From contig OY987301.1 of assembly GCA_963920635.1 (NCBI GenBank), positions 43,251,820 to 43,315,819 of the forward strand: 64,000 bases of DNA, in the 5' to 3' direction. The notes below the pieces were generated by a model. The model did not search any database and had not been told where the DNA came from. It saw only the letters and a program-made list of their open reading frames with translations. Position numbers and translations under genes: made by a program. Positions 19,940 to 64,000 of the stretch are shown piece after piece (within the stretch, counting starts at the first letter, position 1; every line of letters starts with the position of its first letter). Source of the DNA: Pseudeuparius sepicola (taxonomy: Eukaryota > Arthropoda > Insecta > Coleoptera > Anthribidae).

Positions 19940-20140
19940 AATAGTTGGATAGGGAGAAATAGACCTATTTCCTGGCAGCCCCGATCCCCCCGATTTGTCT
20001 GTTTTGGGTTTCTTTTTGTGGGGAACAGTACAAAATAAAGTATCAGACAATTATTGTTGAATTAAGAGTAGCTGTTTTATAAGCAATTGCCAGTATTGAC
20101 ATGCGCTCTCTAAGAAAGGCGACAAATTCAGATTTAAAAA
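19940..20140 (+). pseudogene. Mariner-like transposase C-terminal remnant
   Basis: A plus-strand frame reads WIGRNRPISWQPRSP followed by shifted FVCFGFLFVG. This matches the RWIGR.GPI.WP.RSPDL...DFFLWG segment of mariner-like transposases with the third catalytic region. Downstream TIVELRAAV-like and RRSLRKATNSVLKR-like pieces appear in other frames. The catalytic Asp is not preserved and several frameshifts are present. It lies inside the 17227-20788 element. Confidence 0.6.
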
Positions 20141-32565: not shown

Positions 32566-33526
32566 CAAAATCAAAAACCTTAGCGCTTCTTACTCGATCT
32601 CGTTTAGAAACCTGTCACGCTACGCAGATCCCATACGGTGTATATTCGCAGACTTATCGATCGGCAGTGACGTCACTGGAGCCCTCGGCCGGTTTGTTTA
32701 CTCTTGGCACAGCCGACCAGAGTAATAAAAACGGTTGAAAGCGATTTTTTCTAGTTTTTGTATCGATCGCTGAGTCATCACCGGTCAGCCGGCCCGCGAA
32801 CAACCATGCCTCCCTAGGTCGACGCATTATAATATTACAAATGAATTTTAGGTGTTGAAAATAATTACGGAAACAATAATTAAAATAAAGTTTATTCAGA
32901 TATTTACAATTATATACCTAGCTATACCTTGGTGTTGAAAACATTTTAAATAATAAACTGAAATAATCCTCAAGAAGAATTTGCTTGTGCATGCTTTCGT
33001 TGATTGAGGATTCCTTCCTACATCGACGAGGCTTTTAACGAGGATAAGATCACAGACCTATACAGGATGTCTATATTAAAGGGGAGCCAGTGAATATCTT
33101 GATAAATATGCATTTTTTGGTTTCGGGCAACTTTCTTTGAAAGAAAAGATTGCTTTTTTGATGGTCTAACTTTATGCAAAAGCATATTCGAGAATTACGG
33201 CCTATACTTTCCGAGATAATTTTGAAAAACCTTTGTAAAAACCGCCTTGTTTTAAGAGTTACCGAAAAAATTCTTAATGACGTTTGTGGGCAAAACTGAC
33301 TGCTTTCAGTTTACTTTATTAGAATTTGGAAAAAGGACTCCGTTTATAGCACTAAAAAAAAACTCAGCTGGCATGCTAGAAAATTTTAAAACTGTCCGAG
33401 ATAGTTTTACCTTTACCACAGGATAAACAATACCTTTACCAATACCTCCTGAGAAATTTCCAAGATTTGCAAAATAGTAGTTATGTTGTGAAATATAGCG
33501 TTGATTTTCATCGACGAATGTAGGTA

Positions 33527-41765: not shown

Positions 41766-42708
41766 GTAAAAATACTCTATATCGGCTTCCTGCGTGATTT
41801 TTATTTTATGTTATATATCTCCTTTGTGAGTGCAGAGGTATACCCTATTTCAAAGTATGATTAAGGCCATAGTTCGAGCTACTTTTTTTTATTGTAATTT
41901 GCACTAGGTCTGTTGAACTTTGTATTCAAGGTTTTGGTCCGATTTGATAACACAACAGTTCCTGGTTTGAGTGGTTTGACGTGTTTCCTCTCTTCCCTTG
42001 TCTAAGTCTCAAACAATGGAATTTCCCTGGCAATAATGAGGAGACCGGCAATTCTATATATGCCCTCAGCTTTGTAAGGCCTGCTTTCGAAAGGATAATG
42101 ATAATAATAATAATAATAATTCTCTCCCTGACAATACTCCAAACTAGGAGTACCTACCCCAGAAGTAACCACATGCTTGTGCGGGGGAGGGGGGCAATTA
42201 CTATTATTTTGTCTTCGTTGCCATTTGCGGCAACTAATATTCTTGCAGATGCGAACATAACTTTGATCATGCGTGCCTCACTATTCCACTGCTAGTCTTG
42301 ACATCAGCCACATGACTGACTCCATCTTGTCCTGATAATATCAGACACACCTTGCTTATCTTCGTCATTTAACTCGTGTCGTTGCAATTATGTAATATGT
42401 ATTCTTTGTATCACCGTTTCCAGAAGTTAATAAAAAAAATGAGCAGGTGTGATAGATTAATGTACAAAAGGGCGTAGCACACTCTTATGATACTAGAACA
42501 AGGAATCAATTCAGAATTCCAAGGCATCGACTAAATGAAACAAAGAATTCAAGACTTGCAATGGAGTCCATTGAAAGGACACTAAAATATCAAACAAGTT
42601 ATCCACAAATATTAAAACATCTGATCTTGCGTAGGTACAGTTTTTGATTCAGACATTGCCTTGTAATTTTCGAAAGGCGAAAGCAGACAGCATTTTAAAC
42701 AGAAATTT
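41766..42708. other. Intergenic with a free (AAT)n tract
   Basis: AAT repeats at about 42095-42120 are an unoccupied site of the kind used by the retrotransposon at the right of the window. The 104-codon frame crossing it (41981-42295) has no recognised domain. Confidence 0.4.

Positions 42709-45087: not shown

Positions 45088-45123
<36 letters not shown>
45088..45123. repeat. (AAT)11 tract at the left edge of the array
   Basis: Eleven AAT units between host sequence ending CCTTTTA and copy A. It is presumably the original target microsatellite. Four bases (GGCA) of unclear origin precede the first recognisable element base. Confidence 0.9.
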
Positions 45124-45129
45124 GGCAGT

Positions 45130-47838
45130 AAAGACATAGGACAAGTGACGGAATATATCAGAGGAGTTAGAACTAGAAGGATCCAGAGGGCGGTGCAGGC
45201 AGTAATGAGCCGCACCCAAATGCATTCTCGGCATGACCCCGCGAACATCACTGCTCAACAATGTCTTGACACATTAAAACAAAAACTTTCTGTTTTCGCA
45301 GGGCGTCTGAGGAGATACAAGGCTAGTAACAACAGGAAACGAGACAATAAACTCTTTGAACGATCAGAAAAGGGTTTCTACCGTGCTTTTAATTCTAGCG
45401 CCGATGCCACAAATGCGAGTTACCCTAGCAGAGAACAGGTCGACGGTTTCTGGAGAAATCAACTTGCCACACCAGGTCCATACAATGTCAGTGCAAGCTG
45501 GATCAGCGAAGAACGCGAGATGGGCCAAAACTATAGCCAGATGCAACACGAGCAATTCACAACCGCTGAAGTCTCCGATGTCATCAAGAATTCCCACAAC
45601 TGGAAGGCACCAGGTCCAGATCATCTCCAAAATTATTGGATTAAGAAGTTGTGGTGCACGCATGAACAAATAACTACCTTAATTAATGAAGTCTTGCTCG
45701 ATCCTCTGAAAATGCCATTGTTTCTTACACAGGGTGCAACTTACCTGTTACCAAAAGACCAGCGGAATACGGATAACCCTGCCAAGTACCGCCCAATAAC
45801 CTGCTTGCCTACGCTTTACAAGATAATCACATCTTGCCTTACGCAGCGAATATATGCTCACTGCGAGCGGAACAACATCATTACAATGCAGCAGAAGGGC
45901 TGCTCGAAGGGCGCAATGGGATGCAAAGAGCAACTCATCATAGACTCTGTCATCTGCAACCAGGCTCATTCCAAGCAACGAAACCTCCACATGGCTTATG
46001 TGGACTACAAAAAAGCATTTGATTCCGTACCTCACGACTGGCTCACAGGTATCTTAAAGCTGTATAAAATAGATCATCATACAGTTTCCTTTTTAGAACA
46101 CGTTATGACAACCTGGCGCACTAAGATACAACTCAGAACCGCAGACAGTAACATCGAGACCGACACAATCAACATCCGAAGAGGGATTTTCCAAGGAGAT
46201 TCACTCAGTCCACTGTGGTTCTGCATGGCGATGAACCCTCTATCACATCGGTTGAACTCTACAAAATATGGCTTCGCTATCAAAAGCAACAACGCAGAAG
46301 CGATCAAGTTGAATCACCTATTATATATGGATGATTTAAAACTGATCGCCGCAACCAAAAACCAACTAACGCAAATGCTTAAAATTGTAGAGGAGTTCTC
46401 CAGGGACATCGGAATGCTGTTTGGACTGGACAAGTGCCGCACCCTTAATATCATCCGGGGAAAGCTCGAACAAAGCGCACACGAGATGCAGGACGGCCAG
46501 GAGATCGAAGCAATGAGCAAGGGAGATACATACAAGTATCTCGGGATGAAACAAGCTCAAAGGATAGACCATCGAACAATGAAGACTGATTTAACGAATG
46601 AATTCATCAAGAGAGTAAGACAAGTAGTGCGAACTGATCTTAACAGCAGGAATTTGTTTAAGGCCCTGAACACGTATGCGTGCTCTGTACTCAGCTATTC
46701 GTTCGGAATAGTGAATTGGACCAACACGGACATCAACAACCTGCAACGAAAAGTTAGGACACTACTGACAAAAGCTCATAAACATCATCCCCGTAGCGCC
46801 GTAGAAAGAACAACTCTGCCACGTCAACTAGGAGGAAGAGGATTGGCAGATCTCAGCAAGCAATTGGACCAACAAATATTAAATCTGCGTAATTATTTCT
46901 ACAGGCAGGCCAACAGCTCCACACTACATAGGGCTATATGCGGAGCAGACGTCTCAACACCGCTACGTCTGACGGAACACGAGCGTCAAAATCACCACCG
47001 AACCGACAACGATAAACTACAGAGGTGGTTGGGGAAGCCGCTGCACGGGAGACATCCTAATGAGGTTAACCAGGAACATGTCGACAAGTTAGCGTCGAAC
47101 TATTGGCTGACCTCGGGACGAATGTTCCCCGAGACGGAAGGCTTCCTACTGGCCATACAAGATCAGGTTATACCAACTCGCAACTACCTAAAATTCATTG
47201 TAGGAGATGCATCGGTAGTGGATGACAGATGCAGATACGGGTGCCCAACTTCAGAAACAATCCAGCACATAACAGGAGGATGTCAGATGTTCGCATCAAC
47301 GGAATATAAGGAACGACACGATTCGGTTGCCAAGATCTTGCACCGGGAACTGGCGGAAAAGCTGCTGCTTGTGCAGACAGAAAGGGTCCCATATTACAAC
47401 TACACACCTGAGCCTGTTCTTGAGAACAGCAACTACAAGATGTACTGGGATCGTACAGTTCTGACTGATCAACGAGTTGCCCATAACAGACCGGACCTTA
47501 TAATAGTTGATAAAATTTCTAGGAAGACAACTCTGATTGATGTGGCCATCCCGAACAACAACAACCTGCGTGTGAAGCAAGTCGAGAAGATCGCGAAGTA
47601 CAGAGACTTAGAAGAACGAATTAGAAGGCAATGGGAAATGGAGAACGTCCAGACGATTCCAATCATCATGTCAACAACTGGTGTTATACCAAAAAGTTTG
47701 CTGAGAAACATCAAGGAGCTGAATCTAACTGATAGTCTTTACAGGTCCATGCAGAAAGCGGTACTACTTGCGACAGCCCGAACCGTCAGGAAATTCATGG
47801 GGAATGCAGGATCGTCCAAGAACATCAATGTCACCTAG
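45130..47838 (+). pseudogene. R4/Dong-type polyprotein, N-terminally truncated (copy A)
   Basis: About 900 codons are open up to TAG 47838. All of reverse transcriptase (VDYKKAFDSVPH, GIFQGDSLSP, YMDDLKL), the CCHC knuckle and the RPDLII...LIDVAIP endonuclease are present. The N-terminal Myb-like segment and natural start are missing. The frame is continuous leftward through the AAT tract as poly-Asn into flank, so no authentic start exists. Closest to copy F over the 5' half (both have RAVQAV, others RAVQAI) and to B and E over the 3' half. Confidence 0.85.
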
Positions 47839-47954
47839 GGCCCGATAACATGGCAAGGGTCTCGTCCGAGCCAGATCCTTTTGGTATCCGGGATGCCCGG
47901 GATCTGAGTGAATGTTCCCCGTAGAGGGAGTGCGAATGCCTTTTGGCTAAGTCG

Positions 47955-47957
<3 letters not shown>
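47839..47957 (+). terminator. 3' UTR of the retrotransposon (copy A; same in B-E)
   Basis: Follows every complete copy: GGGCCCGATAACATGGCAAGG to GGCTAAGTCGA, then TAA repeats. It contains a perfect 5-bp stem with a triloop (CCGGG-ATG-CCCGG; ATA loop in B and C). In related elements the 3' UTR RNA is bound by the reverse transcriptase to start target-primed synthesis. Copy E has one extra T in the CTTTTTGGC run. No AATAAA is present before the TAA tract. Confidence 0.6.

Positions 47958-47999
<42 letters not shown>
47958..47999. repeat. (TAA)14 junction between copies A and B
   Basis: Fourteen uninterrupted TAA units. It is both the 3' tail of copy A and the insertion site of copy B. Confidence 0.9.
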
Positions 48000-48001
<2 letters not shown>

Positions 48002-48035
48002 TGTCATAGGGCCGCTGCCTGGGGATCGCCAGGGC

Positions 48036-51000
48036 ATGTCTGGAGCCGGCGCTGGGCATGACAGTGAGCGGGACGTCGGTGACAGGGCGCTGATGAGGCG
48101 GGCCCCTGTTGCACAAACAGCTACAGCCCAGCAACACGAACATCTACAACATGGGAGCCAAACGAGAACTAGGGTTCCACCCACCGAAGGTGCTGCGCGG
48201 GAACTTCAGCCAGCGTTCACTCAGGCGGGATTACAACGACGACGCATGAAATGGACTGGGTCCATGAATGAATCGATAATGCGTATTTTTTACAGGGTGA
48301 CAAACTTAGGACAAGAGATGATCGGCTACCGACAACAACTGCATGCCGAGTTCTGCAGGGAGTTTCCACACATGCAAGTGCCTGTACAAAGAGTGTCAGA
48401 TCAGTATCGAACTATTCTAAGAAATAACCGAATTCCAGAAACGCGACTTAACGCTATAAAACGGGAAGTTGAGCTAGAGATCCATGGCGAACACATAGAC
48501 ATAGACAACAACAACGGGGAAATTCAAGTGCCTGGACCACAACAAGAAGCCGGAACGGCAGAGCGAACAACTGAGAATCGGGAAATTCAAGTGCCTGGAC
48601 CACAACAAGAAGCCGAGACGGCGGGACGAACAACTGAGAATCGGGAATCAGTTAACGGAGAACACTTTGAAAGCCTGGACACACAGCTGAGAAGGGCGGT
48701 ATTGCGATACGAAGGCACAGACCCACTGAGCAGACCACCACTACCAAGATTGAATTCTTCCAGGAAGCTTGCAATCATGCTCGATATTATGAACACCAGA
48801 ATTTTACCCAACTATGTTTCAGTAACACCCACATTAGAACATATGCACATGTTAATCTACTGTGCCGCAACGGCCATCATCACTGCAATGGGAGCCAAGA
48901 TCCGGACGGCTCAAGAGTTAAATCGTGCAAGACCAGAACCACGAATGGCTCAATGGGAGATGCGACTAAATCGGAAGATCGAGAGTCTCCGTAAAGACAT
49001 AGGACAAGTAACCGAATATATCAGAGGAGTTAGAACTAGAAAGATCCAGAGGGCGGTGCAGGCAATAATGAGCCGCACCCAAATGCATTCTCAGCGTGAC
49101 CCCGCGAACATCACTGCTCAACAATGTCTTGATACATTAAAACAAAAACTTTCTGTTTTCGCAGGGCGTCTGAGGAGATACAAGGCCAGTAACAACAGGA
49201 AACGAGACAACAAACTCTTTGAACGATCAGAAAAGGGTTTCTACCGTACTTTGAATTCTAGCGCCGATGCCACAAATACGAGTTACCCTAGCAAAGAACA
49301 GGTCGACGGTTTCTGGAGAAATCAGCTTGCCACACCAGGTCCATGCAATGTCAGTGCAAGCTGGATCAGTGAAGAACGCGAGATGGGCCGGAACTATAGC
49401 CAGATGCAACACGAGCAATTCACAACCGATGAAGTCTCCAATGTCATCAAGAATTCCCACAACTGGAAGGCACCAGGTCCAGATCATCTCCAAAATTATT
49501 GGATTAAGAAGTTGTGTTGCACGCATGAACAAATAACTACCTTAATTAATGAAGTCTTGCTCGATCCTCTGAAAATGCCATTGTTTCTTACACAGGGTGC
49601 CACCTACTTGTTACCAAAAGACCAGCGGAATACGGATAACCCTGCCAAGTACCGCCCAATAACCTGCTTGCCTACGCTGTACAAGATAATCACTTCTTGC
49701 CTTACGCAGCGAATATATGCTCACTGCGAGCGGAACAACATCATGGCAATGCAGCAGAAGGGCTGCGCGAAGGGCGCAATGGGATGCAAAGAGCAACTCA
49801 TCATAGACTCTGTCATCTGCAACCAGGCTCATTCCAAGCAACGAAACCTCTACATGGCTTATGTGGACTACAAAAAAGCATTTGATTCCGTACCTCACGA
49901 CTGGCTAACAGGTATCTTAAAGCTGTATAAAATAGATCATCATACAGTTTCCTTTTTAGAACACGCTATGACAACCTGGCGCACTAAGATACAACTCAGA
50001 ACCGCAAGCAGCAACATCGAGACCGACACAATCAACATCCGAAGAGGGATTTTCCAAGGAGATTCACTCAGTCCACTGTGGTTCTGCATGGCGATGAACC
50101 CTCTATCACATCGGTTGAACTCTACAAAATACGGCTTCGCTATCAAAAGCAACAACGCAGAAGTGATCAAGTTGAATCACCTATTATATATGGATGATTT
50201 AAAACTGATGGCCGCAACCAAAAACCAACTAACGCAAATGCTTAAAATTGTAGAGGAGTTCTCCAGGGACATCGGAATGCTGTTTGGACTGGACAAGTGC
50301 CGCACCCTTAATATCATCCGGGGAAAGCTCGAACAAAGCGCACACGAGATGCAGGACGGCCAGGAGATCGAAGCAATGAGCAAGGGAGACACATACAAGT
50401 ATCTCGGGATGAAACAAGCTCAAAGGATAGACCATCGAACAATGAAGACTGATTTAACGAATGAATTCATCAAGAGAGTAAGACAAGTAGTGCGAACTGA
50501 TCTTAACAGCAGGAATTTGTTTAAGGCCCTGAACACGTATGCGTGCTCTGTACTCAGCTATTCGTTCGGAATAGTGAATTGGACCAACACGGACATCAAC
50601 AACCTGCAACGAAAAGTTAGGACACTACTGACAAAAGCTCATAAACATCATCCCCGTAGCGCCGTAGAAAGAACAACTCTGCCACGTCAACTAGGAGGAA
50701 GAGGATTGGCAGATCTCAGCAAGCAATTGGACCAACAAATATTAAATCTGCGTAATTATTTCTACAGGCAGGCCAACAGCTCCACACTACATAGGGCTAT
50801 ATGCGGAGCAGACGTCTCAACACCGCTACGTCTGACGGAACACGAGCGTCAAAATCACCACCGAACCGACAACGATAAACTACAGAGGTGGTTGGGGAAG
50901 CCGCTGCACGGGAGACATCCTAATGAGGTTAACCAGGAACATGTCGACAAGTTAGCGTCGAACTATTGGCTGACCTCGGGACGAATGTTCCCCGAGACGG

Positions 51001-51701
51001 AAGGCTTCCTACTGGCCATACAAGATCAGGTTATACCAACTCGCAACTACCTAAAATTCATTGTAGGAGATGCATCGGTAGTGGATGACAGATGCAGATA
51101 CGGGTGCCCAACTTCAGAAACAATCCAGCACATAACAGGAGGATGTCAGATGTTCGCATCAACGGAATATAAGGAACGACACGATTCGGTTGCCAAGATC
51201 TTGCACCGGGAACTGGCGGAAAAGCTGCTGCTTGTGCAGACAGAAAGGGTCCCATATTACAACTACACACCTGAGCCTGTTCTTGAGAACAGCAACTACA
51301 AGATGTACTGGGATCGTACAGTTCTGACTGATCAACGAGTTGCCCATAACAGACCGGACCTTATAATAGTTGATAAAATTTCTAGGAAGACAACTCTGAT
51401 TGATGTGGCCATCCCGAACAACAACAACCTGCGTGTGAAGCAAGTCGAGAAGATCGCGAAGTACAGAGACTTAGAAGAACGAATTAGAAGGCAATGGGAA
51501 ATGGAGAACGTCCAGACGATTCCAATCATCATGTCAACAACTGGTGTTATACCAAAAAGTTTGCTCAGAAACATCAAGGAGCTGAATCTAACTGATAGTC
51601 TTTACAGGTCCATGCAGAAAGCGGTACTACTTGCGACAGCCCGAACCGTCAGGAAATTCATGGGGAATGCAGGATCGTCCAAGAACATCAATGTCACCTA
51701 G
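48036..51701 (+). CDS. R4/Dong-type retrotransposon protein, intact (copy B, 1,221 aa)
   Basis: Reverse transcriptase and endonuclease that would nick TAA-repeat DNA and copy the element RNA onto it. Order: basic, Gln-rich N-terminus; Myb/trihelix-like segment at residues ~72-140 (KWTGSMNESIMRIFYR..., YRQQLHAEFCREFP, RVSDQYRTILRNN). An Asn/Gln-rich linker with a 21-residue tandem duplication (~162-203) follows. Next are APGPDHLQNYW, PAKYRPITCLPTLYK, catalytic Asp 611 in VDYKKAFD, GIFQGDSLSP (671-680) and YMDD (718-721). Then comes a CCHC knuckle C1020-x3-C1024-x7-H1032-x4-C1037. Last is a restriction-like nuclease with RPD (Asp 1108), LIDVAIP (Asp 1123) and a K/Y-rich helix. There is no apurinic-type endonuclease and no RNase H, as in the R2/R4 group. 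TAA in the tract closes the frame upstream, so ATG 48036 is the first usable start here. No stop or frameshift is present. Confidence 0.95.
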   Translation: MSGAGAGHDSERDVGDRALMRRAPVAQTATAQQHEHLQHGSQTRTRVPPTEGAARELQPAFTQAGLQRRRMKWTGSMNESIMRIFYRVTNLGQEMIGYRQQLHAEFCREFPHMQVPVQRVSDQYRTILRNNRIPETRLNAIKREVELEIHGEHIDIDNNNGEIQVPGPQQEAGTAERTTENREIQVPGPQQEAETAGRTTENRESVNGEHFESLDTQLRRAVLRYEGTDPLSRPPLPRLNSSRKLAIMLDIMNTRILPNYVSVTPTLEHMHMLIYCAATAIITAMGAKIRTAQELNRARPEPRMAQWEMRLNRKIESLRKDIGQVTEYIRGVRTRKIQRAVQAIMSRTQMHSQRDPANITAQQCLDTLKQKLSVFAGRLRRYKASNNRKRDNKLFERSEKGFYRTLNSSADATNTSYPSKEQVDGFWRNQLATPGPCNVSASWISEEREMGRNYSQMQHEQFTTDEVSNVIKNSHNWKAPGPDHLQNYWIKKLCCTHEQITTLINEVLLDPLKMPLFLTQGATYLLPKDQRNTDNPAKYRPITCLPTLYKIITSCLTQRIYAHCERNNIMAMQQKGCAKGAMGCKEQLIIDSVICNQAHSKQRNLYMAYVDYKKAFDSVPHDWLTGILKLYKIDHHTVSFLEHAMTTWRTKIQLRTASSNIETDTINIRRGIFQGDSLSPLWFCMAMNPLSHRLNSTKYGFAIKSNNAEVIKLNHLLYMDDLKLMAATKNQLTQMLKIVEEFSRDIGMLFGLDKCRTLNIIRGKLEQSAHEMQDGQEIEAMSKGDTYKYLGMKQAQRIDHRTMKTDLTNEFIKRVRQVVRTDLNSRNLFKALNTYACSVLSYSFGIVNWTNTDINNLQRKVRTLLTKAHKHHPRSAVERTTLPRQLGGRGLADLSKQLDQQILNLRNYFYRQANSSTLHRAICGADVSTPLRLTEHERQNHHRTDNDKLQRWLGKPLHGRHPNEVNQEHVDKLASNYWLTSGRMFPETEGFLLAIQDQVIPTRNYLKFIVGDASVVDDRCRYGCPTSETIQHITGGCQMFASTEYKERHDSVAKILHRELAEKLLLVQTERVPYYNYTPEPVLENSNYKMYWDRTVLTDQRVAHNRPDLIIVDKISRKTTLIDVAIPNNNNLRVKQVEKIAKYRDLEERIRRQWEMENVQTIPIIMSTTGVIPKSLLRNIKELNLTDSLYRSMQKAVLLATARTVRKFMGNAGSSKNINVT
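48519..48644 (+). repeat. 63-bp in-frame tandem duplication in copy B
   Basis: Two 63-bp units encode EIQVPGPQQEA..TA.RTTENR twice in the linker after the Myb-like segment. The other copies that reach this region (C, E, F) have a single unit. Confidence 0.85.
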
Positions 51702-51817
51702 GGCCCGATAACATGGCAAGGGTCTCGTCCGAGCCAGATCCTTATGGTATCCGGGATACCCGGGATCTGAGTGAATGTTCCCCGTAGAGGGAGTGCGAAT
51801 GCCTTTTGGCTAAGTCG

Positions 51818-51857
51818 ATAATAATAATAATAATAAAAATAATAATAATAATAATAA
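51818..51857. repeat. TAA junction between copies B and C
   Basis: TAA repeats with one interruption (AATAAAAATAAT near 51834-51843), unlike the perfect tracts elsewhere. Confidence 0.85.
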
Positions 51858-54800
51858 CATCTACAACATGGGAGCCAAACGAGAACTAGGGTTCCACCCA
51901 CCGAAGGTGCTGCGCGGGAACTTCAGCCAGCGTTCACAGAGGCGGGATTACAACGACGACGCATGAAATGGACTGTGTCCATGAATGAATCGATTATGCG
52001 TATTTTTTACAGGGTGACAAACTTAGGACAAGAGATGATCGGCTACCGACAACAACTGCATGCCGAGTTCTGCAGGGAGTTTCCATACATGCAAGTGTCT
52101 GAACAAAGAGTGTCAGATCAGTATCGAACTATTCTAAGAAATAACCGAATTCCAGAAACGCGACTTAACGCTATCAAACGGGAAGTTGAGCTAGAGATCC
52201 ACGGCGAACACATAGCCATAGATGACAACAACAACAATGGGGAACTTCAAGCGCCTGGACAACAACTAGAAGCCGAAACGGTAGAACCAACAACCGAGAG
52301 TCTGGAATCGGTTAACGAAGAACATTTTGAAGGCTTAAACGCACATATGAGACAGGCAGTATTGCGATACGAAGGCACAGACCCACTGAGCAGGCCACCG
52401 CTACCAAGATTAAATTCTTCCAGGAAACTTGCGATCGTGCTCGATCTTATGAACACACGAATTTTACCAAACTATGTTTCAGTGACACCAACATTAGAAC
52501 GTATGCACATGTTAATCTACTGTGCCGCAACGGCAGTCACCACTGTAATGGGTGCCAAGATCCGAACGGCCCAGGAGTTGAATCGTGCAAGACCAGAACC
52601 ACGAATGGCTCAATGGGAAATGCGACTAAATCGGAAGATCGAGAGTCTCCGTAAAGACATAGGACAAGTGACGGAATATATCAGAGGAGTTAGAACTAGA
52701 AGGATCCAGAGGGCGGTGCAGGCAATAATGAGCCGCACCCAAATGCATTCTCGGCATGACCCCGCGAACATCACTGCTCAACAATGTCTTGACACATTAA
52801 AACAAAAACTTTCTGTTTCCGCAGGGCGTCTGAGGAGATACAAGGCTAGTAACAACAGGAAACGAGACAACAAACTCTTTGAACGATCAGAAAAGGGTTT
52901 CTACCGTGCTTTTAATTCTAGCGCCGATGCCACAAATGCGAGTTACCCTAGCAGAGAACAGGTCGACGGTTTCTGGAGAAATCAACTTGCCACACCAGGT
53001 CCATACAATGTCAGTGCAAGTTGGATCAGCGAAGAACGCGAGATGGGCCGGAACTATAGCCAGATGCAACACGAGCAATTCACAACCGCTGAGGTCTCCG
53101 ATGTCATCAAGAATTCCCACAACTGGAAGGCACCAGGTCCAGATCATCTCCAAAATTATTGGATTAAGAAGTTGTGGTGCACGCATGAACAGATAACTAC
53201 CTTAATTAATGAAGTCTTGCTCGATCCTCTGAAAATGCCATTGTTTCTTACACAGGGTGCAACCTACCTGTTACAAAAAGACCAGCGGAATACGGATAAC
53301 CCTGCCAAGTACCGCCCAATAACCTGCTTGCCTACGCTGTACAAGATAATCACATCTTGCCTTACGCAGCGAATATATGCTCACTGCGAGCGGAACAACA
53401 TCATTGCAATGCAGCAGAAGGGCTGCTCGAAGGGCGCAATGGGATGCAAAGAGCAACTCATCATAGACTCTGTCATCTGCAACCAGGCTCATTCCAAGCA
53501 ACGAAACCTCCACATGGCTTATGTGGACTACAAAAAAGCATTTGATTCCGTACCTCACGACTGGCTCACAGGTATCTTAAAGCTGTATAAAATAGATCAT
53601 CATACAGTTTCCTTTTTAGAACACGTTATGACAACCTGGCGCACTAAGATACAACTCAGAACCGCAGACAGTAACATCGAGACCGACACAATCAACATCC
53701 GAAGAGGGATTTTCCAAGGAGATTCACTCAGTCCACTGTGGTTCTGCATGGCGATGAACCCTCTATCACATCGGTTGAACTCTACAAAATATGGCTTCGC
53801 TATCAAAAGCAACAACGCAGAAGCGATCAAGTTAAATCACCTATTATATATGGATGATTTAAAACTGATCGCAGCAACCAAAAACCAACTAACGCAAATG
53901 CTTAAAATTGTAGAGGAGTTCTCCAGGGACATCGGAATGCTGTTTGGACTGGACAAGTGCCGCACCCTTAATATCATCCGGGGAAAGCTCGAACAAAGCG
54001 CACACGAGATGCAGGACGGCCAGGAGATCGAAGCAATGAGCAAGGAAGATACATACAAGTATCTCGGGATGAAACAAGCTCAAAGGATAGACCATCGAAC
54101 AATGAAGACTGATTTAACGAATGAATTCATCAAGAGAGTAAGACAAGTAGTGCGAACTGATCTTAACAGCAGGAATTTGTTTAAGGCCCTGAACACGTAT
54201 GCGTGCTCTGTACTCAGCTATTCGTTCGGAATAGTGAATTGGACCAACACGGACATCAACAACCTGCAACGAAAAGTTAGGACACTACTGACAAAAGCTC
54301 ATAAACATCATCCCCGTAGCGCATTAGAAAGAACAACTCTGCCACGTCAACTAGGAGGAAGAGGATTGGCAGATCTCAGCAAGCAATTGGACCAACAAAT
54401 ATTAAAGCTGCGTAATTATTTCTACAGGCAGGCCAACAGCTCCACACTACATAGGGCTATATGCGGAGCAGACGTCTCAACACCGCTACGTCTGACGGAA
54501 CACGAGCGTCAAAATCACCACCGAACCGACAACGATAAACTACAGAGGTGGTTGGGGAAGCCGCTGCACGGGAGGCATCCTAACGAGGTTAACCAGGAAC
54601 ATGTCGACAAGTTAGCGTCGAACTATTGGCTGACCTCGGGACGAATGTTCCCCGAGACGGAAGGCTTCCTACTGGCCATACAAGACCATACAAGATCAGG
54701 TTATACCAACTCGCAACTACCTAAAATTCATTGTAGGAGATGCATCGGTAGTGGATGACAGATGCAGATACGGGTGCCCAACTTCAGAAACAATCCAGCA

Positions 54801-55489
54801 CATAACAGGAGGATGTCAGATGTTCGCATCAACGGAATATAAGGAACGACACGATTCGGTTGCCAAGATCTTGCACCAGGAACTGGCGGAAAAGCTGCTG
54901 CTTGTGCAGGCAGAGAGGGTCCCATATTACAACTACACACCTGAGCCTGTTCTTGAGAACAGCAACTACAAGATGTACTGGGATCGTACAGTTCTGACAG
55001 ATCAACGAGTTGCCCATAACAGACCGGACCTTATAATAGTTGATAAAATTTCTGGGCAGACAACTCTGATTGATGTGGCCATCCCGAACAACAACAACCT
55101 GCGTGTGAAGCAAGTCGAGAAGGTCGCGAAGTACCGAGATTTAGAAGAACGAATTAGAAGGCAATGGGAAATGAAGAACGTCCAGACGATTCCAATCATC
55201 ATGTCAACAACTGGTGTTATACCAAAAAGTTTGCTGAGAAACATCAAGGAGCTGGGTCTAACTGATAGTCTTTACAGGTCCATGCAGAAAGCGGTACTAC
55301 TTGCGACAGCCCGAACCGTCAGGAAATTCATGGGGAGTGCAGGAACGTCCGACAACATCAATGTCACCTAAGGCCCGATAACATGGCAAGGGTCTCGTCC
55401 GAGCCAGATCCTTTTGGTATCCGGGATACCCGGGATCTGAGTGAATGTTCCCCGTAGAGGGAGTGCGAATGCCTTTTGGCTAAGTCGAG
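51856..55489 (+). mobile_element. Retrotransposon copy C, 5'-truncated and frameshifted
   Basis: Starts AACATCTACAACATGGGAGC, missing the 5' UTR and the first ~35 codons. 3' UTR complete. It has the same 5' junction as copy E. Confidence 0.9.
51963..55371 (+). pseudogene. R4/Dong-type protein broken by a 10-bp duplication (copy C)
   Basis: Open from ATG 51963 (MKWTVSMNES) through the Myb-like segment and the whole reverse transcriptase. A tandem repeat of CCATACAAGA at 54675-54694 then shifts the frame and the first part ends at 54758. The remaining CCHC and nuclease parts continue in another frame from about 54700 to TAA 55371. The 3' part carries private changes (HQELAEK, KISGQTT, KELGLTD, AGTSDN), so C is the most diverged copy downstream. 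LQKDQRN replaces LPKDQRN, shared with E only. Confidence 0.9.

Positions 55490-55533
<44 letters not shown>
55490..55533. repeat. TAA junction between copies C and D
   Basis: About 14 perfect units, overlapping AATT of the element at the copy D break point. Confidence 0.9.
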
Positions 55534-55537
55534 TCAT

Positions 55538-55575
<38 letters not shown>

Positions 55576-56914
55576 AGACAAGTAGTGCGAACTGATCTTA
55601 ACAGCAGGAATTTGTTTAAGGCCCTGAACACGTATGCGTGCTCTGTACTCAGCTATTCGTTCGGAATAGTGAATTGGACCAACACGGACATCAACAACCT
55701 GCAACGAAAAGTTAGGACACTACTGACAAAAGCTCATAAACATCATCCCCGTAGCGCCGTAGAAAGAACAACTCTGCCACGTCAACTAGGAGGAAGAGGA
55801 TTGGCAGATCTCAGCAAGCAATTGGACCAACAAATATTAAATCTGCGTAATTATTTCTACAGGCAGGCCAACAGCTCCACACTACATAGGGCTATATGCG
55901 GAGCAGACGTCTCAACACCGCTACGTCTGACGGAACACGAGCGTCAAAATCACCACCGAACCGACAACGATAAACTACAGAGGTGGTTGGGGAAGCCGCT
56001 GCACGGGAGACATCCTAATGAGGTTAACCAGGAACATGTCGACAAGTTAGCGTCGAACTATTGGCTGACCTCGGGACGAATGTTCCCCGAGACGGAAGGC
56101 TTCCTACTGGCCATACAAGATCAGGTTATACCAACTCGCAACTACCTAAAATTCATTGTAGGAGATGCATCGGTAGTGGATGACAGATGCAGATACGGGT
56201 GCCCAACTTCAGAAACAATCCAGCACATAACAGGAGGATGTCAGATGTTCGCATCAACGGAATATAAGGAACGACACGATTCGGTTGCCAAGATCTTGCA
56301 CCGGGAACTGGCGGAAAAACTGCTGCTTGTGCAGGCAGAGAGGGACCCATATTACAGCTACACACCGGAGCCTGTTCTTGAGAACAGCAACTACAAGATG
56401 TACTGGGATCGTACAGTTCTGACAGATCAACGAGTTGCCCATAACAGACCGGACCTTATAATAGTTGATAAAATTTCTAGGCAGACAACTCTGATTGATG
56501 TGGCCATCCCGAACAACAACAACCTGCGTGTGAAACAAGTCGAGAAGATCGCGAAGTACAGAGATTTAGAAGAACGAATTAGAAGGCAATGGGAAATGGA
56601 GAACGTCCAGACGATTCCAATCATCATGTCAACAACTGGTGTTATACCAAAAAGTTTGCTGAGAAACATCAAGGAGCTGAATCTAACTGATAGTCTTTAC
56701 AGGTCCATGCAGAAAGCGGTACTACTTGCGACAGCCCGAACCGTCAGGAAATTCATGGGGAATGCAGGATCGTCCAAGAACATCAATGTCACCTAGGGCC
56801 CGATAACATGGCAAGGGTCTCGTCCGAGCCAGATCCTTTTGGTATCCGGGATGCCCGGGATCTGAGTGAATGTTCCCCGTAGAGGGAGTGCGAATGCCTT
56901 TTGGCTAAGTCGAG
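55534..56914 (+). mobile_element. Retrotransposon copy D, heavily 5'-truncated
   Basis: Starts at TTCATCAAGAG, downstream of the YMDD region, and keeps the C-terminal third and the 3' UTR. It begins with an expanded GA tract. Confidence 0.9.
55541..55573 (+). repeat. (GA)n expansion at the start of copy D
   Basis: 33 nt of GA repeat replace the GAGAG found at this position in the other copies (TCAAGAGAGTAAGAC). A new microsatellite of 14 extra GA units has arisen within 10 bp of the insertion junction. Confidence 0.9.
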
Positions 56915-56924
56915 ATAATAATAA
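56915..56924. repeat. Short TAA junction between copies D and E
   Basis: Only about three units, the shortest in the array, between CTAAGTCGAG and AACATCTAC. Confidence 0.85.
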
Positions 56925-59900
56925 CATCTACAACATGGGAGCCAAACGAGAACTAGGGTTCCACCCACCGAAGGTGCTGCGCGGGAACTTCAGCCAGCGT
57001 TCACAGAGGCGGGATTACAACGACGACGCATGAAATGGACTGTGTCCATGAATGAATCGATTATGCGTATTTTTTACAGGGTGACAAACTTAGGACAAGA
57101 GATGATCGGCTACCGACAACAACTGCATGCCGAGTTCTGCAGGGAGTTTCCATACATGCAAGTGTCTGAACAAAGAGTGTCAGATCAGTATCGAACTATT
57201 CTAAGAAATAACCGAATTCCAGAAACGCGACTTAACGCTATCAAACGGGAAGTTGAGCTAGAGATCCACGGCGAACACATAGCCATAGATGACAACAACA
57301 ACAATGGGGAACTTCAAGCGCCTGGACAACAACTAGAAGCCGAAACGGTAGAACCAACAACCGAGAGTCTGGAATCGGTTAACGAAGAACATTTTGAAGG
57401 CTTAAACGCACATATGAGACAGGCAGTATTGCGATACGAAGGCACAGACCCACTGAGCAGGCCACCGCTACCAAGATTAAATTCTTCCAGGAAACTTGCG
57501 ATCGTGCTCGATCTTATGAACACACGAATTTTACCAAACTATGTTTCAGTGACACCAACATTAGAACGTATGCACATGTTAATCTACTGTGCCGCAACGG
57601 CAGTCACCACTGTAATGGGTGCCAAGATCCGAACGGCCCAGGAGTTGAATCGTGCAAGACCAGAACCACGAATGGCTCAATGGGAAATGCGACTAAATCG
57701 GAAGATCGAGAGTCTCCGTAAAGACATAGGACAAGTGACGGAATATATCAGAGGAGTTAGAACTAGAAGGATTCAGAGGGCGGTGCAGGCAATAATGAGC
57801 CGCACCCAAATGCATTCTCGGCATGACCCCGCGAACATCACTGCTCAACAATGTCTTGACACATTAAAACAAAAACTTTCTGTTTCCGCAGGGCGTCTGA
57901 GGAGATACAAGGCTAGTAACAACAGGAAACGAGACAACAAACTCTTTGAACGATCAGAAAAGGGTTTCTACCGTGCTTTTAATTCTAGCGCCGATGCCAC
58001 AAATGCGAGTTACCCTAGCAGAGAACAGGTCGACGGTTTCTGGAGAAATCAACTTGCCACACCAGGTCCATACAATGTCAGTGCAAGTTGGATCAGCGAA
58101 GAACGCGAGATGGGCCGGAACTATAGCCAGATGCAACACGAGCAATTCACAACCGCTGAGGTCTCCGATGTCATCAAGAATTCCCACAACTGGAAGGCAC
58201 CAGGTCCAGATCATCTCCAAAATTATTGGATTAAGAAGTTGTGGTGCACGCATGAACAGATAACTACCTTAATTAATGAAGTCTTGCTCGATCCTCTGAA
58301 AATGCCATTGTTTCTTACACAGGGTGCAACCTACCTGTTACAAAAAGACCAGCGGAATACGGATAACCCTGCCAAGTACCGCCCAATAACCTGCTTGCCT
58401 ACGCTGTACAAGATAATCACATCTTGCCTTACGCAGCGAATATATGCTCACTGCGAGCGGAACAACATCATTGCAATGCAGCAGAAGGGCTGCTCGAAGG
58501 GCGCAATGGGATGCAAAGAGCAACTCATCATAGACTCTGTCATCTGCAACCAGGCTCATTCCAAGCAACGAAACCTCCACATGGCTTATGTGGACTACAA
58601 AAAAGCATTTGATTCCGTACCTCACGACTGGCTCACAGGTATCTTAAAGCTGTATAAAATAGATCATCATACAGTTTCCTTTTTAGAACACGTTATGACA
58701 ACCTGGCGCACTAAGATACAACTCAGAACCGCAGACAGTAACATCGAGACCGACACAATCAACATCCGAAGAGGGATTTTCCAAGGAGATTCACTCAGTC
58801 CACTGTGGTTCTGCATGGCGATGAACCCTCTATCACATCGGTTGAACTCTACAAAATATGGCTTCGCTATCAAAAGCAACAACGCAGAAGCGATCAAGTT
58901 AAATCACCTATTATATATGGATGATTTAAAACTGATCGCAGCAACCAAAAACCAACTAACGCAAATGCTTAAAATTGTAGAGGAGTTCTCCAGGGACATC
59001 GGAATGCTGTTTGGACTGGACAAGTGCCGCACCCTTAATATCATCCGGGGAAAGCTCGAACAAAGCGCACACGAGATGCAGGACGGCCAGGAGATCGAAG
59101 CAATGAGCAAGGAAGATACATACAAGTATCTCGGGATGAAACAAGCTCAAAGGATAGACCATCGAACAATGAAGACTGATTTAACGAATGAATTCATCAA
59201 GAGAGTAAGACAAGTAGTGCGAACTGATCTTAACAGCAGGAATTTGTTTAAGGCCCTGAACACGTATGCGTGCTCTGTACTCAGCTATTCGTTCGGAATA
59301 GTGAATTGGACCAACACGGACATCAACAACCTGCAACGAAAAGTTAGGACACTACTGACAAAAGCTCATAAACATCATCCCCGTAGCGCCGTAGAAAGAA
59401 CAACTCTGCCACGTCAACTAGGAGGAAGAGGATTGGCAGATCTCAGCAAGCAATTGGACCAACAAATATTAAATCTGCGTAATTATTTCTACAGGCAGGC
59501 CAACAGCTCCACACTACATAGGGCTATATGCGGAGCAGACGTCTCAACACCGCTACGTCTGACGGAACACGAGCGTCAAAATCACCACCGAACCGACAAC
59601 GATAAACTACAGAGGTGGTTGGGGAAGCCGCTGCACGGGAGACATCCTAATGAGGTTAACCAGGAACATGTCGACAAGTTAGCGTCGAACTATTGGCTGA
59701 CCTCGGGACGAATGTTCCCCGAGACGGAAGGCTTCCTACTGGCCATACAAGATCAGGTTATACCAACTCGCAACTACCTAAAATTCATTGTAGGAGATGC
59801 ATCGGTAGTGGATGACAGATGCAGATACGGGTGCCCAACTTCAGAAACAATCCAGCACATAACAGGAGGATGTCAGATGTTCGCATCAACGGAATATAAG

Positions 59901-60546
59901 GAACGACACGATTCGGTTGCCAAGATCTTGCACCGGGAACTGGCGGAAAAGCTGCTGCTTGTGCAGACAGAAAGGGTCCCATATTACAACTACACACCTG
60001 AGCCTGTTCTTGAGAACAGCAACTACAAGATGTACTGGGATCGTACAGTTCTGACTGATCAACGAGTTGCCCATAACAGACCGGACCTTATAATAGTTGA
60101 TAAAATTTCTAGGAAGACAACTCTGATTGATGTGGCCATCCCGAACAACAACAACCTGCGTGTGAAGCAAGTCGAGAAGATCGCGAAGTACAGAGACTTA
60201 GAAGAACGAATTAGAAGGCAATGGGAAATGGAGAACGTCCAGACGATTCCAATCATCATGTCAACAACTGGTGTTATACCAAAAAGTTTGCTGAGAAACA
60301 TCAAGGAGCTGAATCTAACTGATAGTCTTTACAGGTCCATGCAGAAAGCGGTACTACTTGCGACAGCCCGAACCGTCAGGAAATTCATGGGGAATGCAGG
60401 ATCGTCCAAGAACATCAATGTCACCTAGGGCCCGATAACATGGCAAGGGTCTCGTCCGAGCCAGATCCTTTTGGTATCCGGGATGCCCGGGATCTGAGTG
60501 AATGTTCCCCGTAGAGGGAGTGCGAATGCCTTTTTGGCTAAGTCGA

Positions 60547-60547
<1 letters not shown>
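56923..60547 (+). mobile_element. Retrotransposon copy E, slightly 5'-truncated, ORF intact
   Basis: Same 5' break point (AACATCTAC) as copy C and nearly identical to it for over 2 kb. The 3' half matches copies A and B instead. Confidence 0.95.
57030..60428 (+). CDS. R4/Dong-type retrotransposon protein (copy E, 1,132 aa)
   Basis: Uninterrupted from ATG 57030 (MKWTVSMNES) to TAG 60428, with the Myb-like segment, full reverse transcriptase (VDYKKAFD, GIFQGDSLSP, YMDD), CCHC and RPD/LIDVAIP nuclease. The first ~70 codons of the copy B protein are missing or not in frame, because TAA of the junction tract precedes CATCTACAA. The protein would therefore start at this internal Met with its core domains complete. 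The 5' half equals copy C (including LQKDQRN and SKEDTYK), and the 3' half equals A and B (HRELAEK, KISRKTT). The switch lies between about 59112 and 59388. Confidence 0.92.
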   Translation: MKWTVSMNESIMRIFYRVTNLGQEMIGYRQQLHAEFCREFPYMQVSEQRVSDQYRTILRNNRIPETRLNAIKREVELEIHGEHIAIDDNNNNGELQAPGQQLEAETVEPTTESLESVNEEHFEGLNAHMRQAVLRYEGTDPLSRPPLPRLNSSRKLAIVLDLMNTRILPNYVSVTPTLERMHMLIYCAATAVTTVMGAKIRTAQELNRARPEPRMAQWEMRLNRKIESLRKDIGQVTEYIRGVRTRRIQRAVQAIMSRTQMHSRHDPANITAQQCLDTLKQKLSVSAGRLRRYKASNNRKRDNKLFERSEKGFYRAFNSSADATNASYPSREQVDGFWRNQLATPGPYNVSASWISEEREMGRNYSQMQHEQFTTAEVSDVIKNSHNWKAPGPDHLQNYWIKKLWCTHEQITTLINEVLLDPLKMPLFLTQGATYLLQKDQRNTDNPAKYRPITCLPTLYKIITSCLTQRIYAHCERNNIIAMQQKGCSKGAMGCKEQLIIDSVICNQAHSKQRNLHMAYVDYKKAFDSVPHDWLTGILKLYKIDHHTVSFLEHVMTTWRTKIQLRTADSNIETDTINIRRGIFQGDSLSPLWFCMAMNPLSHRLNSTKYGFAIKSNNAEAIKLNHLLYMDDLKLIAATKNQLTQMLKIVEEFSRDIGMLFGLDKCRTLNIIRGKLEQSAHEMQDGQEIEAMSKEDTYKYLGMKQAQRIDHRTMKTDLTNEFIKRVRQVVRTDLNSRNLFKALNTYACSVLSYSFGIVNWTNTDINNLQRKVRTLLTKAHKHHPRSAVERTTLPRQLGGRGLADLSKQLDQQILNLRNYFYRQANSSTLHRAICGADVSTPLRLTEHERQNHHRTDNDKLQRWLGKPLHGRHPNEVNQEHVDKLASNYWLTSGRMFPETEGFLLAIQDQVIPTRNYLKFIVGDASVVDDRCRYGCPTSETIQHITGGCQMFASTEYKERHDSVAKILHRELAEKLLLVQTERVPYYNYTPEPVLENSNYKMYWDRTVLTDQRVAHNRPDLIIVDKISRKTTLIDVAIPNNNNLRVKQVEKIAKYRDLEERIRRQWEMENVQTIPIIMSTTGVIPKSLLRNIKELNLTDSLYRSMQKAVLLATARTVRKFMGNAGSSKNINVT

Positions 60548-60593
<46 letters not shown>
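60548..60593. repeat. (TAA)15 junction between copies E and F
   Basis: About 15 perfect units, followed by the first base of the copy F 5' UTR. Confidence 0.9.
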
Positions 60594-60594
<1 letters not shown>

Positions 60595-60596
<2 letters not shown>

Positions 60597-61003
60597 CGCA
60601 GGGGGGATCTGACTTGTGAGAGAGGCAGATCCACGGGTGTGACAATCCCGCGCTCCCCAGTTACGCAGGGATGAGTCTGGCCTGTGAGAGGGGCAGATTC
60701 ACGGGTGTAACGATCCCGCGATTCCCAGTTACGCATGGAGAGGCTTGGCCTGTGACAGGGGCAGACCTACGGGTGTGACAATCCCGCGATATCCAGTTGC
60801 GCAGGGAGGGGTCTAGCCGGTGACGGGGGCTGATCCTCGGGGGTGACAATCCCGCGACTCCCAGTTACACAGGGATGGGTCTAGCCTGTGAGAGGGGCAG
60901 ATCCTCGGGTGTAACGATCCCGTGTTTCCCAGTTAACGCAAGGAGGGGTTTGGCCGGTGACAGGGGCAGATCCTCGGGAGTAACGATCCCGCGTTATCCT
61001 AGT
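60595..61003 (+). promoter_or_regulatory. Six ~68-bp monomers in the 5' UTR
   Basis: Units start at 60595, 60662, 60730, 60798, 60866 and 60934. Each has T(A/G)CGCAGGGA, GGCC(T/G)GTGA, GGGGCAGATCC, CGGGTGTAACGATCCCGCG and ends CCAGT. A degenerate seventh begins at 61004 (TGACCCGTATGGG). Tandem monomers at the 5' end of a non-LTR element recall the promoter monomers of rodent L1. A promoter role is inference. Confidence 0.75.
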
Positions 61004-61160
61004 TGACCCGTATGGGTAGCGGGTTAGAATACTCCTATCGTGGCTCCGCGAGTCGTAAAAGGCGACCGAGGGCCGTCACTCCCACGTTACGGGAGAAAAC
61101 TATGGAATGGAGAATGATAGGATGATTGTCATAGGGCCGCTGCCTGGGGATCGCCAGGGC
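61004..61160 (+). promoter_or_regulatory. Unique leader with short uORF overlapping an in-frame ATG
   Basis: Contains GTCG-TAAAAGG-CGAC (a small hairpin at 61052-61066). An 8-codon uORF (ATG 61102 to TGA 61123-61125) has a stop that overlaps an ATG (61122) as ATGA; that ATG is in frame with the main ORF. In-frame ATGs also occur at 61107 and 61161. A CCTGG...CCAGG stem lies just before ATG 61161. Confidence 0.45.
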
Positions 61161-64000
61161 ATGTCTGGAGCCGGCGCTGGGCATGACAGCGAGCGGGACG
61201 TCGGTGACAGGGCGCTGATGAGGCGGGCCCCTGTTGCACAAACAGCTACAGCCCAACAACAACACGAACATCTACAACATGGGAGCCAAACGAGAACTAG
61301 GGTTCCACCCACCGAAGGTGCTGCGCGGGAACTTCAGCCAGCGTTCACAGAGGCGGGATTACAACGACGACGCATGAAATGGACTGTGTCCATGAATGAA
61401 TCGATTATGCGTATTTTCTACAGGGTGACAAACTTAGGACAAGAGATTATCGGCTACCGACAACAACTGCATGCCGAGTTCTGCAGGGAGTTTCCACACA
61501 TGCAAGTGTCTGAACAAAGAGTGTCAGATCAGTATCGAACTATTCTAAGAAATAACCGAATTCCAGAAACGCGACTTAACGCTATCAAACGGGAAGTTGA
61601 GCTAGAGATCCACGGCGAACACATAGACATAGATGACAACAACAACAATGGGGAACTTCAAGAGCCTGGACAACAACTAGAAGCCGAAACGGTAGAACCA
61701 ACAACCGAGAGTCTGGAACGGGTTAACGAAGAACATTTTGAAGGCTTGGACACACATATGAGACAGGCAGTATTGCGATACGAAGGCACAGACCCACTTA
61801 GCAGGCCACCGCTACCAAGATTAAATTCTTCCAGGAAACTTGCGATCGTGCTCGATCTTATGAACACAAGAATTTTACCAAGCTATGTTTCAGTGACACC
61901 AACATTAGAACGTATGCACATGTTAATCTACTGTGCCGCAACGGCAGTCATCACTGTAATGGGTGCCAAGATCCGAACGGCCCAAGAGTTGAATCGTGCA
62001 AGACCAGAACCACGAATGGCTCAATGGGAAATGCGACTAAATCGGAAGATCGAGAGTCTCCGTAAAGACATAGGACAAGTGACGGAATATATCAGAGGAG
62101 TTAGAACTAGAAGGATCCAGAGGGCGGTGCAGGCAGTAATGAGCCGCACCCAAATGCATTCTCGGCATGACCCCGCGAACATCACTGCTCAACAATGTCT
62201 TGACACATTAAAACAAAAACTTTCTGTTTTCGCAGGGCGTCTGAGGAGATACAAGGCTAGTAACAACAGGAAACGAGACAATAAACTCTTTGAACGATCA
62301 GAAAAGGGTTTCTACCGTGCTTTTAATTCTAGCGCCGATGCCACAAATGCGAGTTACCCTAACAGAGAACAGGTCGACGGTTTCTGGAGAAATCAACTTG
62401 CCACACCAGGTCCATACAATGTCAGTGCAAGCTGGATCAGCGAAGAACGCGAGATGGGCCGGAACTATAGCCAGATGCAACACGAGCAATTCACAACCGC
62501 TGAGGTCTCCGATGTCATCAAGAATTCCCACAACTGGAAGGCACCAGGTCCAGATCATCTCCAAAATTATTGGATTAAGAAGTTGTGGTGCACGCATGAA
62601 CAAATAACTACCTTAATTAATGAAGTCTTGCTCGATCCTCTGAAAATGCCATTGTTTCTTACACAGGGTGCAACTTACCTGTTACCAAAAGACCAGCGGA
62701 ATACGGATAACCCTGCCAAGTACCGCCCAATAACCTGCTTGCCTACGCTTTACAAGATAATCACATCTTGCCTTACGCAGCGAATATATGCTCACTGCGA
62801 GCGGAACAACATCATTGCAATGCAGCAGAAGGGCTGCTCGAAGGGCGCAATGGGATGCAAAGAGCAACTCATCATAGACTCTGTCATCTGCAACCAGGCT
62901 CATTCCAAGCAACGAAACCTCCACATGGCTTATGTGGACTACAAAAAAGCATTTGATTCCGTACCTCACGACTGGCTCACAGGTATCTTAAAGCTGTATA
63001 AAATAGATCATCATACAGTTTCCTTTTTAGAACACGTTATGACAACCTGGCGCACTAAGATACAACTCAGAACCGCAGACAGTAACATCGAGACCGACAC
63101 AATCAACATCCGAAGAGGGATTTTCCAAGGAGATTCACTCAGTCCACTGTGGTTCTGCATGGCGATGAACCCTCTATCACATCGGTTGAACTCTACAAAA
63201 TATGGCTTCGCTATCAAAAGCAACAACGCAGAAGCGATCAAGTTGAATCACCTATTATATATGGATGATTTAAAACTGATCGCCGCAACCAAAAACCAAC
63301 TAACGCAAATGCTTAAAATTGTAGAGGAGTTCTCCAGGGACATCGGAATGCTGTTTGGACTGGACAAGTGCCGCACCCTTAATATCATCCGGGGAAAGCT
63401 CGAACAAAGCGCACACGAGATGCAGGACGGCCAGGAGATCGAAGCAATGAGCAAGGGAGATACATACAAGTATCTCGGGATGAAACAAGCTCAAAGGATA
63501 GACCATCGAACAATGAAAACTGATTTAACGAATGAATTCATCAAGAGAGTAAGACAAGTAGTGCGAACTGATCTTAACAGCAGGAATTTGTTTAAGGCCC
63601 TGAACACGTATGCGTGCTCTGTACTCAGCTATTCGTTCGGAATAGTGAATTGGACCAACACGGACATCAACAACCTACAACGAAAAGTTAGGACACTACT
63701 GACAAAAGCTCATAAACATCATCCCCGTAACGCCGTAGAAAGAACAACTCTGCCACGTCAACTAGGAGGAAGAGGATTGGCAGATCTCAGCAAGCAATTG
63801 GACCAACAAATATTAAATCTGCGTAATTATTTCTACAGGCAGGCCAACAGCTCCACACTACATAGGGCTATATGCGGAGCAGACGTCTCAACACCGCTAC
63901 GTCTGACGGAACACGAGCGTCAAAATCACCACCGAACCGACAACGATAAACTACAGAGGTGGTTGGGGAAGCCGCTGCACGGGAGACATCCTAATGAGGT
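61161..64000 (+). CDS. R4/Dong-type retrotransposon protein (copy F), partial
   Basis: Open from ATG 61161 (MSGAGAGHDSERDVG, matching copy B) to the edge, about 946 codons, without a stop. The frame could begin earlier at ATG 61122 or 61107, since the leader is open from 61059. One extra Gln codon occurs near residue 36 relative to copy B. The Myb-like segment and full reverse transcriptase with YMDD are present; the CCHC and nuclease lie beyond the window. It has single linker units (no 63-bp duplication) and private changes such as LERVNEEHFEGLD and YPNREQ. Potentially complete and active if the rest is intact. Confidence 0.9.
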   Translation, partial: MSGAGAGHDSERDVGDRALMRRAPVAQTATAQQQHEHLQHGSQTRTRVPPTEGAARELQPAFTEAGLQRRRMKWTVSMNESIMRIFYRVTNLGQEIIGYRQQLHAEFCREFPHMQVSEQRVSDQYRTILRNNRIPETRLNAIKREVELEIHGEHIDIDDNNNNGELQEPGQQLEAETVEPTTESLERVNEEHFEGLDTHMRQAVLRYEGTDPLSRPPLPRLNSSRKLAIVLDLMNTRILPSYVSVTPTLERMHMLIYCAATAVITVMGAKIRTAQELNRARPEPRMAQWEMRLNRKIESLRKDIGQVTEYIRGVRTRRIQRAVQAVMSRTQMHSRHDPANITAQQCLDTLKQKLSVFAGRLRRYKASNNRKRDNKLFERSEKGFYRAFNSSADATNASYPNREQVDGFWRNQLATPGPYNVSASWISEEREMGRNYSQMQHEQFTTAEVSDVIKNSHNWKAPGPDHLQNYWIKKLWCTHEQITTLINEVLLDPLKMPLFLTQGATYLLPKDQRNTDNPAKYRPITCLPTLYKIITSCLTQRIYAHCERNNIIAMQQKGCSKGAMGCKEQLIIDSVICNQAHSKQRNLHMAYVDYKKAFDSVPHDWLTGILKLYKIDHHTVSFLEHVMTTWRTKIQLRTADSNIETDTINIRRGIFQGDSLSPLWFCMAMNPLSHRLNSTKYGFAIKSNNAEAIKLNHLLYMDDLKLIAATKNQLTQMLKIVEEFSRDIGMLFGLDKCRTLNIIRGKLEQSAHEMQDGQEIEAMSKGDTYKYLGMKQAQRIDHRTMKTDLTNEFIKRVRQVVRTDLNSRNLFKALNTYACSVLSYSFGIVNWTNTDINNLQRKVRTLLTKAHKHHPRNAVERTTLPRQLGGRGLADLSKQLDQQILNLRNYFYRQANSSTLHRAICGADVSTPLRLTEHERQNHHRTDNDKLQRWLGKPLHGRHPNE

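Follow-up and report, generated by a model that had tools for sequence, protein, structure and literature searches.

Several groups of retrotransposons offer close comparisons to the element described here. According to the accessible part of PMC7998251, R4/Dong elements carry an RT plus a REL endonuclease and an N-terminal Myb/SANT-like domain, and (TAA)n is their reported target in an ostracod and in “most insects, mollusks and cnidarians”. In Bombyx mori, Dong has its 5′ end directly after TAA, and an HDV-like ribozyme has been shown at the 5′ end of both R4 and Dong (PMC3774820, in excerpt). Another group comprises the telomeric LINEs SART/TRAS, GilM/GilT, Zepp and MoTeR, which build up within the simple repeat they target (PMC10088271, in excerpt). 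Occasional tandem insertion at the target is also on record for Utopia, a U2 snRNA gene-specific family with a REL endonuclease (PMC4640811, in excerpt).

The element of the beetle Pseudeuparius sepicola reported here shares with R4/Dong the RT, a putative REL endonuclease and the (TAA)n target; the TAA specificity that the original prediction had cited for Dong agrees with the accessible text of PMC7998251 and PMC3774820. It differs from R4/Dong in forming head-to-tail arrays, which the same portions of these two papers do not describe, and from Bombyx Dong in that the 5′ ribozyme reported there (PMC3774820, in excerpt) was not recognised. As with the telomeric LINEs, its arrays sit in the simple repeat that is the target. 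Those of the telomeric LINEs, however, lie in telomeric repeats, whereas ours are internal, both on the sampled contig C1 and in the array first noticed, which sits 43.3 Mb into a contig of 68.5 Mb; the likeness to SART/TRAS that had been proposed thus holds for the principle and not for the location. While Utopia targets a gene, the target here is a repeat that the element itself appears to leave behind. TAA targeting was already known; the genome-wide TAA-joined arrays of a Dong-like family look new, and we found no report of internal arrays of this kind among the titles and abstract openings of the open-access literature.

The window, that is, the whole 64,000-nt stretch of DNA analysed, lies at C4:43251820-43315819 in an assembly of 16 contigs totalling 769 Mb. 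Repeat and BLAST analyses bore out six same-strand copies joined by (TAA)n at 45088-64000, long pairwise matches among them showing 94.5-99.6% identity. The array does not stop at the window edge: the sixth copy continues beyond it and two more follow before non-element sequence is reached, so that, with the adjoining genome, eight copies (c1 to c8) span 45123-69328. Its parts are the following:

45090-45122, forward strand: (TAA)11 at the left edge, with non-element sequence on its left
45123-47957, forward strand: c1, 5′-truncated, with an 897-aa open frame
47958-47999, forward strand: (TAA)14 between c1 and c2
48000-51818, forward strand: c2, beginning in the leader, with a 1221-aa open frame at 48036-51701
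51819-51857, forward strand: (TAA)6 AAA (TAA)6 between c2 and c3
51858-55490, forward strand: c3, with a broken frame and the same 5′ junction as c5
55491-55532, forward strand: (TAA)14 between c3 and c4
55533-56915, forward strand: c4, a short 3′ fragment containing an (AG)n expansion
56916-56924, forward strand: (TAA)3 between c4 and c5
56925-60548, forward strand: c5, with a 1132-aa open frame
60549-60593, forward strand: (TAA)15 between c5 and c6
60594-64891, forward strand: c6, with an intact 5′ end, 4298 bp, crossing the window edge at 64000
64910-67110: c7, beyond the window, preceded by (TAA)6
67129-69328: c8, beyond the window, preceded by (TAA)6, with a broken frame

From the window, two intact ORFs and one open partial ORF had been counted. 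The frames of c2 and c5 are indeed open; that of c6, open at the window edge, is complete beyond it (1221 aa from the ATG at 61107, stop at 64772), and the c1 frame is open too. All copies share a common 3′ end, as had been noted, but the 5′ extent does not differ everywhere: c3 agrees with c5 and c7 with c8, which leaves six distinct 5′ junctions among the eight copies. The leader of c6 (60595-60993) contains a 68-bp repeat in 5.9 copies, which two further element copies with intact 5′ ends have retained. As a separate observation, c4 holds an (AG)17 tract detected by TRF (55540-55573), separated from its 5′ junction by a few bases, at a place where the AG run of the other copies is short; it is a microsatellite grown inside the array.

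By its sequence, the element can be assigned to the R4/Dong-like non-LTR retrotransposons, as originally predicted, an assignment supported by an R2-like RT, a C-terminal endonuclease and the TAA flanks, (TAA)n or rDNA being the targets of that clade. The reverse transcriptase domain (RVT_1, E 6e-31) matches R2 and LINE-1 structures; R2 provides the closest solved structures both by sequence and by fold, the fold alignment extending to residue 1121-1130, although the target of R2 is the 28S rDNA and not TAA. Two C-terminal motifs, which we take to be a CCHC and a REL endonuclease (RPD..D..K), are well kept across 28 proteins: RPD and the later D and K are conserved, and C, H and C of the CCHC are invariant, the second C being unevenly aligned. 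As regards a Myb/SANT-like domain, the N-terminus gave no Pfam hits and a poor single-sequence model, and three helices at 5-59 in the aligned model. No named Dong or R4 protein occurs among the 120 relatives listed, no relatives appeared in a scan of viral contigs, and an Rfam search run without a positive control returned no HDV-like ribozyme at the 5′ region of c6 or c2.

Both ends of the element adjoin TAA. Every copy of the window array ends in GGCTAAGTCGA, followed by GA, TA, AA or nothing and then by TAA; among 61 copies in the sampled blocks these classes number 33, 16, 1 and 11, respectively. The sample consists of 36 blocks (322 kb): the first 30 3′-end loci (3 kb each), C1 stretches at 17.24-24.15 Mb, and the window plus 30 kb beyond. 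In these blocks, 59 of 65 complete 3′ ends have at least three TAA within 4 nt; of the remaining six, four carry TAA-like tails that are short or interrupted, and the last two have virtually no TAA tail. TAA lies directly upstream of 51 of the 56 visible 5′ ends, the other five comprising c4, where (AG)n intervenes, one end inside a chimeric copy, and about 3/56 without TAA. Genome-wide, searches for the 3′ end plus three TAA gave 1771 and 2037 matches (some minus-strand tails counted twice), with none for a reversed control. After TAA, three copies from separate loci share one starting base, which falls in the A/TAA overlap, and such intact 5′ ends number 332 in the genome at up to two mismatches (control, 0).

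At the 5′ junctions, the element and the TAA tract share a mean of 1.55 nt, compared with 0.38 expected, in the 33 scorable junctions out of 53 (c3/c5 and c7/c8 each entering twice), at least 1 nt being shared in 29 of the 33. The 20 unscored junctions are 18 with no clean TAA and two off the reference. This microhomology suggests that the cDNA end may anneal to TAA during joining of the upstream side.

A genome search for further TAA-joined arrays and for solo copies found both, so the window array is not a one-off. There are 4476 matches to the 3′ end in the genome. On C1, 39 pairs of neighbours at 6 kb or less occur among the initial 100 exact 3′ ends (0.7-32.1 Mb), all 39 on the same strand, where random placement expects 1.86 pairs. 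In the sampled blocks, the next copy starts within 100 nt of 31 of the 65 complete 3′ ends (24 of 57 without the window array), and 40 of the 61 copies outside the window belong to arrays, shares that are lower bounds because many of the 3-kb loci cut off 5′ ends. A 3′ end is followed at 8-38 nt by an intact 5′ start in 90 matches, 89 of them distinct (one place was matched twice), seven belonging to an array on contig C3; the gaps at the 89 are TAA tracts, some of them interrupted. The ratio of the 332 intact 5′ ends to these 90 matches is rough, as the mismatch rules differ.

TAA tracts and copies as similar as these are hard to assemble, and dispersed copies could have been joined through their TAA ends. 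We regard such an artefact as barely credible, and reject it as a general cause: the array contains no N and is contiguous in the assembly, non-element sequence flanks it on both sides, most of its copies can be told apart, and the same one-strand arrangement recurs at many loci.

The TAA content of these loci rises with the number of copies they hold. Over 21 complete loci the gain is 9.6 TAA units per copy (r 0.97), and 7.7 units over the 20 loci other than the window (r 0.93); solo insertions have a mean of 11.7 units, and the window array totals 85. If insertions had merely divided long TAA microsatellites that were already there, without any renewal, such a linear rise would not be expected. 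Neither would the scarcity of long tracts in 200 kb of unoccupied sequence, with ten tracts of at least four units and the longest of only eight, nor the position of (TAA)9 on C1 below 20.9 Mb, where 20 of 36 loci among the matches listed (merged by hand from 100 places) have an exact 3′ end no farther than 6 kb away, a zone that makes up 2.4% of the sequence. On the other hand, empty (TAA)10-11 tracts are present at four loci (L001, L004, L006, L008), and a fixed pool comprising some 3200 long tracts predicts an array share of 0.76, compared with 0.66 observed; since such a pool fits the array share as well, clustering alone is not decisive. Pure splitting of old microsatellites is rejected on the TAA gain and on the clustering of (TAA)9 near 3′ ends, and plain insertion into pre-existing tracts is in our view very unlikely. 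The rise of about 8-10 units per copy thus favours renewal of the TAA target by insertion, even though later slippage or an attraction to long tracts could also yield a gain. The outer upstream tracts, with a mean of 9.0 units, are longer than the outer downstream ones, with 4.5 (P 0.002), a difference for which renewal gives no account.

Arrays could also have grown at the DNA level, a few insertions being multiplied by unequal crossing over or conversion with TAA merely as the joint. Outside the window there are 24 junctions, both 5′ ends being visible at 19, and in 18 of these 19 adjacent C1 pairs the 5′ starts are clearly different, the exception being a chimeric copy at 18.33 Mb, whose start and that of its neighbour are no more than 8 nt apart. 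In the final 1 kb, C1 copies sharing an array are 2.78% apart and those at different loci 2.72% (12 within-array pairs, 37 copies; permutation P 0.59), with P 0.14 and 0.80 for a shorter and a longer region. Because unlinked copies resemble one another as much as neighbours do, and the truncations of neighbours differ, independent insertions were the main source of growth in the sampled C1 arrays; the divergence comparison rules out pure duplication as their main cause. The chimeric copy (L050-L051) joins about reference positions 3407-4024 to 1623-4296, is counted as two pieces in this k=5 locus, and would have arisen by recombination or template switching.

The window array presents a different picture, its six distinct 5′ junctions notwithstanding. 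Its copies are on average 1.25% apart, some pairs only 0-0.3%. Copies c3 and c5, with their common 5′ junction, differ at a single site over 2465 bp and at 26 over the following 1.17 kb (binomial 3e-12), c5 being like c3 in its 5′ 2.46 kb and like c1/c2 in its 3′ part. Likewise, c1 and c2 have 42 differences in their first 1.4 kb and three in the remainder, c2 being a mosaic whose 5′ part has diverged and whose 3′ part equals c1 for some 1.2 kb. The start of c7 matches c8, also at the two sites where c8 and c6 differ, and afterwards there is one difference from c6, the pattern that a single unequal crossover would give. The c3/c5 junction has three exact matches in the genome, two in the window array and one on C1; because this truncation recurs on C1, a shared truncation alone is weak evidence, and the case for duplication of c3/c5 rests on the shared sequence with its sharp change. 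The common 5′ junctions and the mosaic make-up of c3/c5 and c7/c8 mean that DNA-level processes built or homogenised part of the window array. The same probably holds for the C3 array (C3:52641881-52667828), whose seven junctions recur at exact intervals of 4316 bp, as long as c6 (4298) and (TAA)6 together; judged by junction spacing alone, it would be a macrosatellite. As the main explanation of the arrays in general, DNA-level amplification is nevertheless unlikely. Growth by target-renewing insertion, as originally predicted, is supported by the TAA flanks, the TAA gain and the many arrays, and falls short of a full account of the window array.

The hypothesis that we consider probable is that a TAA-inserting element renews its target, that arrays thereby grow head to tail, and that recombination then reworks the copies. 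We infer TPRT itself, a TAA tail copied from the RNA and an endonuclease choosing TAA. The 3′ end of the element would carry TAA units, leaving TAA on both sides after insertion and adding roughly 8-10 units to the locus each time. Any such tract could then receive the next insertion, in head-to-tail orientation every time, and the position of its 5′ end would depend on the extent of cDNA synthesis and on the few bases in which the cDNA end matches TAA. Once adjacent, copies might be duplicated or homogenised by unequal crossing over or conversion, as in c3/c5 and c7/c8. A bolder reading, which we find possible though somewhat doubtful, makes the element a niche builder that produces a large share of its own long TAA tracts, with rich-get-richer loci and with arrays seeding macrosatellites through recombination, the latter being suggested by the exact 4316-bp array on C3.

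These observations point to a mobile element, internally located and thousands of copies strong, that multiplies its target rather than using it up. Because one genome holds solo insertions as well as mixed arrays, partly homogenised ones and one that is exactly periodic, the path from retrotransposon to satellite would be directly traceable, and the TAA gained per insertion would offer a measurable growth law.

Other repeats accompany the element. A dispersed repeat with a (TAA)n edge followed by TTCTCACCCTCACAATACTCCAAACTAGGAGTA occurs at 42102-42160 of the window, at L004 and at C1 loci; five of the sampled copies are immediately followed by it, it also adjoins element-free TAA tracts, and it may act as a supplier of landing pads. 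The left part of the window contains direct and inverted repeats (6769-7587, 7501-8196, 14120-15195, and 19730-20791 with 33524-34634), which are probably other transposons.
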